From positions 1 through 33,511 of the forward strand of contig CAIKOL010000256.1 of the NCBI GenBank assembly GCA_903829085.1: 33,511 nucleotides of DNA, read 5' to 3'. Source of the DNA: an uncultured Anaerolineales bacterium. Lineage in GTDB: Bacteria; Chloroflexota; Anaerolineae; Anaerolineales; Villigracilaceae. Position numbers and translations under genes: made by a program. Of this stretch, positions 10,419 to 14,074 are shown piece by piece. The notes under the pieces are model-generated. The model ran no database searches and was not told the DNA's origin. It worked only from the letters and a program-made list of their open reading frames with translations. Each line of letters opens with the position of its first letter. Positions within the stretch are counted from its first letter, which is position 1.

Positions 10419-11834
10419 TTAGATGTGGATCGCTCGGCCTTCAGCGGCATGCGCGGCTTCCATCAGCGCCTCTGAGAGGGTCGGGTGGGCGTGGATGTTG
10501 CGGGCAATTTCAGTCGGGGTCAATTCCATCATGCGTGCCAGGGTCAGTTCAGGCAGCAGTTCGGTCACTTCCGGGCCGACCAAAGTGGCCCCCAGGATCT
10601 CGCCGTATTTCTCATCCACCACCAGTTTGACCCAGCCAGCGTAGTCTGCCAACCCAAGCGCCTTGCCATTGGCCTGGAAGGGAAAGCGTCCAACCTTGAC
10701 CGTATGACCGCGTTCCTTTGCCTGTGCCTCGGTCATGCCAAAGGAAGCCACCTGTGGTGAGCAGTAGGTGGCGCGCGGCATCATCTCGTAATCCAATTTG
10801 ACCGTCTCGTGACCGGCAATATTCTCTGCACAGACTATCCCCATGGCCGAACCGACGTGTGCCAGCATCAACTTACCGGTCACATCGCCAATGGCCCACA
10901 CGCCGGGGATATTGGTTGCCATGCGCTCGTCGATCTCTACAAATCCGCGTTCACTGATCTTTACACCGGCTTCCTCCAGCCCCAGTCCCCTGGAATTGGG
11001 ACGGAAACCGATTGCCACCAGTGCCTGCTCGGCTTCGAGCAACTTCGTCTCACCAGTGGCAGAGACCGTGACCCTGACACTGCTCCCGGTACTTTCAACC
11101 GCCTCGACTTTGTGTCCAACCATTATTTTCACCCCGCGTTTGGTATATGCCTTGGCTACTTCGGCAGCGGCTTCCTCATCCTCCAGAGGTAGCACGTGCG
11201 GCAGCATCTCCACTACTGTCACATCCACGCCGTAGGAATTCCAGACGGTGGCAAACTCCATCCCGATGGCACCTGCGCCGATGATGATTGCGCTGGTGGG
11301 GAGTTTCTCCTGCAGGATCGCTTCCAAATAAGTGACAACCTTCCCCTCATCCATTTTCCAGGCAGCGGGTAGTACGGCTGAAGCGCCGGTCGCCACGATG
11401 ACGTCTTTAGCGGCCAATTCAGTCAAGGTGCCTTTTTTATCGGAAATGGACACAGTTTTTAATTCGCTTGATGGATCGGCACTCAATTTCGCCGTACCCA
11501 TAAAGACGGAGATGTTATTCTTCTTCATCAAGAAACCCACGCCCTTTACCAGGCGATCTGAGACCTGGCGTGATCGCTTGACGGCTGCGGAATAATCCAA
11601 TTTCAGATTATCAAATGAAAAACCAAATTCCTTACTGCGGCTCCTCAGGATATGGGCGATCTCAGCATTACGCAGGAGCGCCTTCGAGGGGATGCAACCC
11701 ACATTCAAGCACACGCCCCCCAGCCACTGCTTGTCCACAATGGCGGTCTTTAATCCCAACTGGGCTGCGCGGATCGAGGCCACATAGCCAGCTGGCCCTG
11801 CACCGATCACGATAAGATCATAGATTTCAGCCAT
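10419..11834 (-). CDS. lpdA: dihydrolipoyl dehydrogenase
   Basis: MAEIYDLIVIGAGPAGYVASIRAAQLGLKTAIVDKQWLGGVCLNVGCIPSKALL; SD AAGGAGATA upstream of 11834. Confidence 0.9.
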   Translation of the reverse strand: MAEIYDLIVIGAGPAGYVASIRAAQLGLKTAIVDKQWLGGVCLNVGCIPSKALLRNAEIAHILRSRSKEFGFSFDNLKLDYSAAVKRSRQVSDRLVKGVGFLMKKNNISVFMGTAKLSADPSSELKTVSISDKKGTLTELAAKDVIVATGASAVLPAAWKMDEGKVVTYLEAILQEKLPTSAIIIGAGAIGMEFATVWNSYGVDVTVVEMLPHVLPLEDEEAAAEVAKAYTKRGVKIMVGHKVEAVESTGSSVRVTVSATGETKLLEAEQALVAIGFRPNSRGLGLEEAGVKISERGFVEIDERMATNIPGVWAIGDVTGKLMLAHVGSAMGIVCAENIAGHETVKLDYEMMPRATYCSPQVASFGMTEAQAKERGHTVKVGRFPFQANGKALGLADYAGWVKLVVDEKYGEILGATLVGPEVTELLPELTLARMMELTPTEIARNIHAHPTLSEALMEAAHAAEGRAIHI

Positions 11835-11992
11835 AAATATCTCCTTATTGTTGTAAGGGCATAAAGACTGGGATATGGGGTGTGCAGGTGGTTTCACCGC
11901 CCGCTTACCCCATATCCGCCTCTTTTTATTGAGGAGGTCTTTATTTAAGATGGAACCAATTCCTTATTATAACAACTCATGCGAGCTGTACT

Positions 11993-12124
11993 TCACTTGT
12001 GGTTCTTTGGGAATTAGCATAGTGAGGCAGGAAACAGGGGGTGTTGGGGGGGCCGCCGCGCGGCCCGCCCAACACCCCCATCTCTTTCCCTACTTCACGG
12101 ACATTCCCAAAGAACCTCACTTGT
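11993..12124. mobile_element. MITE-like palindromic element (12001-12116) with 8-bp direct repeats TCACTTGT
   Basis: TIRs GGTTCTTTGGGAAT (12001-12014) / ATTCCCAAAGAACC (12103-12116), perfect 14 bp; nested arms GGGGGTGTTGGG/CCCAACACCCCC (12037-12048/12068-12079) and GGGCCGC/GCGGCCC; TCACTTGT at 11993-12000 and 12117-12124. Confidence 0.8.
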
Positions 12125-12240
12125 CGGTTCATGGGAGTTCTCCCGCTCTGGCTCCAAATTTATCCTTCTGCTTCTTGCATAAATAACTGAATTGAAAATG
12201 CCATAAAGCTGTGGAATATAGCCGGCATAAGTACAATTAT

Positions 12241-13605
12241 TTACGCAGTACTCTGTAAATCAGGCTGTGTTGCTGGAATGACGGGACAAACAACCGGAAG
12301 GGTGAGTAATGCATGCGGCACAATCAGCACTTTGCAGGCAGGCCCCAATTCGATCCTGGCGAGTTCCAGGGCAGCCTCCATTGTAGCTGCGGGGATCATT
12401 TTACAGGCAGCTACCAGTTCCGGGCATTCACTTCCCACAATAATGACGCGCGCTTGCTCCAGTACTTTAGCCATTACGAAGGCGCGCTGCTGACCGGGGG
12501 GGTAGCCATCGCGGCGGGCATTTTCCATAATAGACTGGATATTAGGCGCATCCCGCATGGCAGCCAGGAAACGCTGTTCTCCAACTCCGTACCCGGCTCC
12601 TTCTTCGCAACGGGCTGGGATGATCAGGATTCCACCGGGTCGCACTACCGCGGTGGGAGCAAAGAAAAGATAGGATGCAGCGCGGCTGGCCTGGTAAAGG
12701 TTGGTGTCCTTGGGGAAACCAACCCCGCCGATGGCAATATCGTACTGGTGGGGGATATTGACTTCGTAGATGGATCTCGCAAACGGAACCAGTTCCTGAA
12801 AGGTCTGAGCTGGCTCGCCGGCCATCACGCGCAGGATCTGCTTGTCATCATCCAGCACAACATTCACGATAAAGCGCAGGTTCGCACGCCTGGCGACCTG
12901 AGCCACTGCTTCCTGAAACGGGTTACCTTCGATACGTCCCAGGCGGGTGCCGGGATGATCAATGAAGCGAGGGCCATGCGTGTAGGCAATCAGTTTCTCT
13001 CCAGCTGCACCGATCGCCACTGTTTTCCACCCACCGGAGTACCCGGCATATTGATGCGGTTCCACGATCCCGGTTGCGATGACCAGGTCCGCTTCCAGGA
13101 CAGCGGTGTGCAATATGACCGGCATACCGCCCGGCATGACCCCCAGGTCTGCAAGGACCAGTGGATTTTGGGGTTCATTATCAATCACCCGGTAACGCTC
13201 TACAATTCGAGAGCCCAACTTGGTGATCTTTTCTGCCTGGGTTGAGGGCCGGTGCATCCCAACGCCGCACAGCAAGGTAATATCCTCGTCCCTGACCCCG
13301 GCCTGCTCCAATTCGAGCAATACAGGTGGAACAAGCAGGTGGTCCGGGCAGGCACGGGTGATATCGGTAAAAACGATGCAGACGGTGGTAGCAGACCCGG
13401 CCAGCTCCCGAATCGGTTTTGTCCCGGTAGGATGGGCAAGCGCGGTTCTGATTGCGGCAGGCACATCCAGGATGGGCTTTACCGGCTGCGAGGCGATTAC
13501 AGAAGCTTGCATTGTGCCGGGGAGAGTAAACTCAAGGTACGTCTTGCTATATGGGACCCGGAATTTCTGGCTTCCCATCGAATTGGAGTATCTTTTGGAT
13601 TTCAT
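12241..13605 (-). CDS. larA: LarA family protein (nickel-dependent lactate racemase-like, DUF2088)
   Basis: FTDITRACPDHLLVPPVL, LLCGVGMHRPST, EPHQYAGYSGGWKT, DHPGTRLGRIEGNPFQEAV; start taken at MKSKRYSN (13605), MGSQKF (13578) also possible. Confidence 0.75.
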   Translation of the reverse strand: MKSKRYSNSMGSQKFRVPYSKTYLEFTLPGTMQASVIASQPVKPILDVPAAIRTALAHPTGTKPIRELAGSATTVCIVFTDITRACPDHLLVPPVLLELEQAGVRDEDITLLCGVGMHRPSTQAEKITKLGSRIVERYRVIDNEPQNPLVLADLGVMPGGMPVILHTAVLEADLVIATGIVEPHQYAGYSGGWKTVAIGAAGEKLIAYTHGPRFIDHPGTRLGRIEGNPFQEAVAQVARRANLRFIVNVVLDDDKQILRVMAGEPAQTFQELVPFARSIYEVNIPHQYDIAIGGVGFPKDTNLYQASRAASYLFFAPTAVVRPGGILIIPARCEEGAGYGVGEQRFLAAMRDAPNIQSIMENARRDGYPPGQQRAFVMAKVLEQARVIIVGSECPELVAACKMIPAATMEAALELARIELGPACKVLIVPHALLTLPVVCPVIPATQPDLQSTA

Positions 13606-13616
13606 ACAGCAATTAT

Positions 13617-13653
13617 AAAAGCAAATACGGCGACCGGCGGCCTCCGTATTTGC
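13617..13653 (-). terminator. intrinsic terminator of the chagasin-like gene (minus strand)
   Basis: GCAAATACGG...CCGTATTTGC, perfect 10-bp arms, followed on the minus strand by TTTT. Confidence 0.7.
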
Positions 13654-13678
13654 TTTGAATTTGAGGCTGTGTTCAGAC

Positions 13679-14074
13679 TTACTTGACTGTAACTGTGACC
13701 GTGAATGTGTCGGTTGGATCCACACCTGTTTCCCATGGGCGATGGTAGACCAACGTCAATGGGGCTGTACCTGCCTTCAGGGCTTTGAAGGTCAGGGTTA
13801 ATGTCCCGCCCGAACCGACCAGGCCCGGATTACTGCTGCTGAACGAAGGATCACCCACCTGCTCGAACATGGTTGTATCCAAATCTTTTACTTCCCATGT
13901 GTAACCGGTGGATGGATTGCCATCCAAGGTGATCACGATTTGCCCACCTACCTGAACTTCCGCTTTTCCAGCATTGTCGGCAGCGGTCAGCGAGACCTGT
14001 TTGGCGGAGCTGCAGGCGGTTGCCAGAATGAGTAATGCAACAAGCGGAATGAAAGACATAATTTTACGGACCAT
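13679..14074 (-). CDS. chagasin-like (protease inhibitor I42 family) lipoprotein
   Basis: Lipobox LATAC; NPSTGYTWEV, GSGGTLTLTF, YHRPWE motifs. Confidence 0.85.
   Translation of the reverse strand: MVRKIMSFIPLVALLILATACSSAKQVSLTAADNAGKAEVQVGGQIVITLDGNPSTGYTWEVKDLDTTMFEQVGDPSFSSSNPGLVGSGGTLTLTFKALKAGTAPLTLVYHRPWETGVDPTDTFTVTVTVK

Follow-up and report, generated by a model that had tools for sequence, protein, structure and literature searches.

A precedent in Microcystis

The closest precedent for the element described here is a 187-nt MITE of Microcystis aeruginosa PCC 7806, which has been attributed to transposases of the ISL3 family (PMC11448079). The Microcystis MITE is a non-coding stem-loop with imperfect terminal inverted repeats (TIRs) that start with GGCTCTTCG, as do those of ISL3-family insertion sequences (ISs), and it is flanked by direct repeats of 8 nt (PMC11448079). 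Our element resembles it in being a non-coding stem-loop with ISL3-shared ends and 8-bp flanking repeats, and differs from it in host phylum, length and interior and in that no partner IS was detected in the host's own draft genome. ISL3 ISs from the taxonomic family of the host (L051:159-1518 and those of G019, G143, G149 and G100) begin with the same GGYTCTYTGGGAWT... ends; two of them have 8-bp target-site duplications (TSDs) and some have a subterminal hairpin. These ISs are, however, 1.35-1.4 kb long, carry a transposase gene and have an interior unrelated to that of the MITE. As dispersed intergenic hairpins, the copies of the element also recall REP/BIME and other palindromic intergenic repeats, although REP/BIME-type repeats are not known to form TIR-bounded units carrying 8-bp target duplications. 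Our literature search found no paper on MITEs of this group.

A 116-bp non-coding palindrome between larA and lpd

The window that we analyzed (the whole stretch of DNA, 33,511 nt, from an uncultured Anaerolineales bacterium) contains the complete 116-bp near-palindrome at positions 12001-12116 of the + strand. Its perfect 14-bp TIRs, GGTTCTTTGGGAAT on the left (12001-12014, + strand) and ATTCCCAAAGAACC on the right (12103-12116, equal to GGTTCTTTGGGAAT on the - strand), are abutted by the 8-bp duplication TCACTTGT on the left (11993-12000) and on the right (12117-12124). These features were read from the sequence and are further backed by the copy family, fold and TSD signal for the complete unit, by TIR searches for both TIRs and a comparison with IS ends for the left one, and by family-wide 8-bp flank duplication for the two copies of TCACTTGT. 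A first-pass annotation had already reported a 116-bp palindrome with 14-bp perfect TIRs and an 8-bp duplication; its coordinates proved exact on rereading, and TCACTTGT does lie immediately outside 12001 and 12116, as it had claimed.

The element strand folds at -76.6 kcal/mol (z = -10.5), and none of 200 dinucleotide shuffles was equally stable. The earlier description of nearly the whole element folding on itself needs one qualification: pairing is near-perfect only at the centre and over the 14 bp at each end, and is partial in the intermediate segments (~12015-12036 and ~12080-12102). The centre forms a hairpin, GGGGGTGTTGGG...CCCAACACCCCC, with a GC-rich tip (12037-12079, + strand), supported by the fold and by double-sided changes in the alignment of copies. 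A single ORF of 80 aa or more crosses the element (11875-12186, + strand, 103 aa); it is mechanical and runs antisense across the lpd start. The element is without coding capacity of its own, in agreement with the first-pass annotation, and so has the form of a MITE: a short non-coding unit with TIRs.

The element sits in the same-strand spacer of two co-directional genes, just downstream of larA (12241-13725, - strand), which codes for a lactate racemase-like protein with Lar_N and LarA_C domains (Pfam). Its left neighbour, lpd (10419-11897, - strand; start codon not fixed), codes for a dihydrolipoamide dehydrogenase-type protein with a Pyr_redox_2 domain (Pfam). In one congener (G003), lpd adjoins the 3' end of larA and the orthologous spacer lacks the element. 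Hence, the copy in the window is not fixed at the lpd-larA locus. This congener provides the element-free spacer, with both gene ends, that the first-pass annotation had proposed to look for; the single TCACTTGT also expected at such an empty site is not discernible there because the spacer is too diverged to display it.

A dispersed copy family

The host's genome assembly (G000) is a draft of 3.24 Mb in 410 contigs, with a completeness of 80%. BLAST searches of it returned 53 matches, which include single palindromes matched on both strands, at about 40 separate places. The best full-length copies were 84-91% identical. Furthermore, a search of the same genome with the TIR (at most one mismatch) gave 50 matches versus one for the control TIR read backwards. 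The recurrence of the element across the genome and the near absence of matches to the reversed TIR indicate that it is not a product of chance. Relatives of the element were also present in seven of the 11 genomes of the genus, the host's own included (six of the 10 others). The multiple dispersed copies expected of a MITE are thus found, and the BLAST check suggested by the first-pass annotation yielded dozens of copies in the host genome alone. No similar plasmid or phage records were found in record searches.

Members of the family are about 103-118 bp long and have a strong G-rich central hairpin. In the host genome they form two subfamilies with a common core hairpin, designated A (GGTTCTTTGGGAATTAGCGTAGTGAGGC..., which includes the lpd-larA copy) and B (GGTTCTCTGGGAATCGCCGGAGTGATGGG...). 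At L131:840-975 (contig C112), a subfamily-B copy with the TSD TAAATAAG is inserted exactly where a truncated subfamily-A copy ends. The majority of copies are situated between ORFs that are often co-directional (27/39, using a crude ORF caller), and within co-directional spacers these crude calls revealed no convincing bias of the copies towards either the stop upstream or the start downstream. Contigs C5, C44, C63, C149, C154, C222, C234, C279 and C340 end inside the element, making it a probable source of assembly breaks in the draft. We also considered half-copies located in mid-contig (C94, C182, C283, C343 and others) as the ends of a longer element and rejected the idea, as their continuations are mutually different; they resemble truncated copies or the products of assembly breaks related to the palindrome.

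All exact matches to the extended end of the family in named genomes came from Anaerolineae/Chloroflexi (UBA5796, CG2_30_58_95 and GWB2_49_20), in keeping with an Anaerolineales host. The GWB2_49_20 locus (L105) carries the same element, alike in both ends and core hairpin. The loci of UBA5796 and CG2_30_58_95 (L099-L104) are MITE-like and have the same ends; their interiors differ, which makes them other MITE families. A different central palindrome, GGTCACG..CGTGACC, is combined with ISL3-type ends in L053, L055 and L062 of G086 and in L100, L103 and L104 of UBA5796. The presence of several MITE families on one set of ends suggests the repeated birth of MITEs.

Target-site duplications and a filled/empty site pair

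The ends in all fetched loci were paired automatically to give 58 pairs, spurious or decayed ones included. At a spacing of 8 bp, the identity between left and right flanks was 64%, compared to 28-36% at spacings of 4-7 and 9-12 bp. At least seven of the eight flanking positions matched in 25 copies, against a mean of 0.54 and a maximum of 5 across 500 random re-pairings. Exact 8-mer duplications bordered 12 copies and were different in every one of them (for example, ATATCCCG, TGCAATCA, CTTTACTT and GATCTGAC). This 8-bp signal is the footprint of transposition into a target cut with an 8-bp stagger, and it supplies the target-site duplication that marks MITE insertions.

The genome also contains a natural pair of filled and empty sites. 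On contig C128 (L120:853-1068), a subfamily-B copy is nested in the repeat R2 (described below) with one copy of AATAATTG at either end of the MITE, and uninterrupted sister copies of R2 contain the AATAATTG stretch once. Empty sites are thus represented both by the sister R2 copies and by the G003 spacer that lacks the element.

ISL3-family insertion sequences with matching ends

A pattern search recovered the extended end in eight genomes among 152 of the taxonomic family; the reversed control had no match in any listed genome of this family-wide search. The best-matching IS (L051:159-1518, from G081 of the same taxonomic family) is 1360 bp long, has the ends GGCTCTCTGGGAATTAGCGTG and GGTTCTTTAGGAATTAGCGTGG, and matches the extended end of the element family at 19 of 20 bases. 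Its single ORF (415 aa) has the DDE_Tnp_ISL3 (PF01610, E=7.5e-64) and Zn_ribbon_ISL3 (E=6.3e-7) domains of ISL3 transposases (Pfam). Although this IS is itself without a TSD (3/8 positions), 1.4-kb relatives have exact 8-bp duplications (CAAACTTT in G143 and TTTTAATT in G100). Thus, the MITE has its ends in common with an IS encoding a PF01610 transposase and its 8-bp duplication in common with autonomous relatives. The link to ISL3 consists of these shared ends and TSD length, and not of an interior in common such as a deletion derivative would have. The first-pass annotation had proposed an ISL3 origin and recommended a search for an IS with the same TIR; the IS ends, the transposase and the 8-bp TSDs now support that proposal. 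None of the three observations that would have contradicted the first-pass annotation was made: there are other copies, an IS shares the TIR, and the spacer is not fixed.

Homologues of the G081-type transposase were detected in 38 of the 152 genomes of the taxonomic family. One congener (G001) retains a decayed stretch of the transposase, 59% identical and with an internal stop, that adjoins an end of the type GGTTCATTGGGAATCGCCGTGATT. The G081-type transposase was not detected in the host draft (80% complete, 410 contigs), which suggests that the mobilizing IS was lost or is missing from the assembly. A cognate transposase in the same genome would be expected if the family were active, but a MITE does not require one. 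The only ISL3 transposase in this genome (C103) belongs to a different element, which was rejected as the autonomous partner because its flanks lack the TIR of the MITE.

Taken from comparisons of sequence, the element is very likely a non-autonomous MITE moved by an ISL3-family IS transposase. Such a transposase would recognize ends of the GGTTCTTTGGGAATTAGCG type and insert the element into a target cut with an 8-bp stagger, whose repair would duplicate the target (here, TCACTTGT between larA and lpd). Because the element encodes no protein, its movement requires a transposase acting in trans; for the lpd-larA copy, this may have been a member of the ISL3 transposase group of the L051 IS. 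Lying between larA and lpd, where it would be transcribed, the strong hairpin may be merely tolerated or could act as an mRNA 3'-end stabilizer or a weak attenuator.

Alternative origins and the central hairpin

Target duplications of 8 bp occur in IS families besides ISL3. As they are not unique to ISL3, another IS family that generates them (e.g., IS66, IS6 or IS256) could have mobilized the MITE, in which case the ISL3-like ends would be convergent. This scenario is very improbable considering that the IS matching at 19 of 20 end bases has an ISL3 transposase as its single ORF and that the pattern read backwards had no match in any of the listed genomes of the family-wide search. The position of the palindrome in a same-strand spacer just downstream of larA would also suit an ordinary intrinsic terminator, or a chance palindrome with a fortuitous direct repeat. 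Yet dozens of copies elsewhere have different 8-bp duplications each, the orthologous spacer of G003 has no element, and the fold has a z of -10.5. The likelihood of a terminator or chance palindrome is negligible, and the copy family rules it out.

The central hairpin raises the separate prospect of a role in RNA. In 26 aligned copies, the central 17-bp stem was paired in 91.9% of cells, with changes on both sides at 8 of the 17 pairs; over the whole structure, double-sided changes affected 9 pairs versus 3.6 expected in shuffles. The covariation reflects either a function of the hairpin, exerted in RNA or at the DNA level during transposition, or templated correction that homogenizes palindromes. 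The stem is the best kept part of the element, copies are mostly between ORFs that are commonly co-directional, and diverged copies persist in several congeners, all consistent with a domesticated or selected intergenic hairpin of MITE descent (REP/BIME-like, terminator or mRNA-stability element) whose present role is in RNA and not in transposition. We consider this reading unlikely. No U-tract follows the hairpin, no terminator-like match was called on it, and no Rfam family matched in the window; clean TSDs, by contrast, show spread by transposition, and the lpd-larA copy is missing from the G003 spacer and so is not fixed there. Furthermore, survivorship alone predicts an intergenic location, and templated correction of quasi-palindromes can yield double-sided changes. 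It is also doubtful, and rather improbable, that the central GGGGGTGTTGGGCGGGC hairpin was co-opted, that is, selected as a portable RNA/DNA element (a 3'-end stabilizer, attenuator or protein-binding hairpin being the candidate roles) and spread through the operons of the genus by ISL3 transposition. Co-option, if true, would account for the better conservation of the hairpin relative to the ends and for its double-sided changes. The covariation of the central stem poses a small testable question, selection versus templated palindrome correction.

Read as an ISL3-mobilized MITE, the element represents a new family of a kind already known, the non-autonomous ISL3-type MITEs, probably one of Anaerolineales. 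It documents an abundant MITE family in uncultured Anaerolineales that has at least two subfamilies, occurs in several congeners and is tied to a transposase family. The family leaves the understanding of MITEs or ISL3 unchanged; it explains hairpin-rich spacers and some of the contig breaks in these draft genomes.

Other repeats in the lpd-larA spacer

We also identified a second, unrelated repeat (R2) of about 95 bp at positions 12164-12259 of the window. The host genome contains about 18 near-complete R2 copies at 88-98% identity, and diverged copies are present in eight congeners. The TIRs of R2 (TTACTGCTTCTTGCATAAATA and TTACAGRGTACTGCGTAAATA) are imperfect and bordered by TA, and there is no duplication beyond this dinucleotide. 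Judging from these ends, it resembles a MITE of the TA-target (IS630/Tc1-like) type. In addition, a 50-bp imperfect palindrome, GGGATATGGGG...CCCCATATCC, is located just upstream of lpd (11866-11916). It is absent from the G003 spacer, has one relative (79%) in the host genome (C157) and is a possible third insertion in the lpd-larA spacer.
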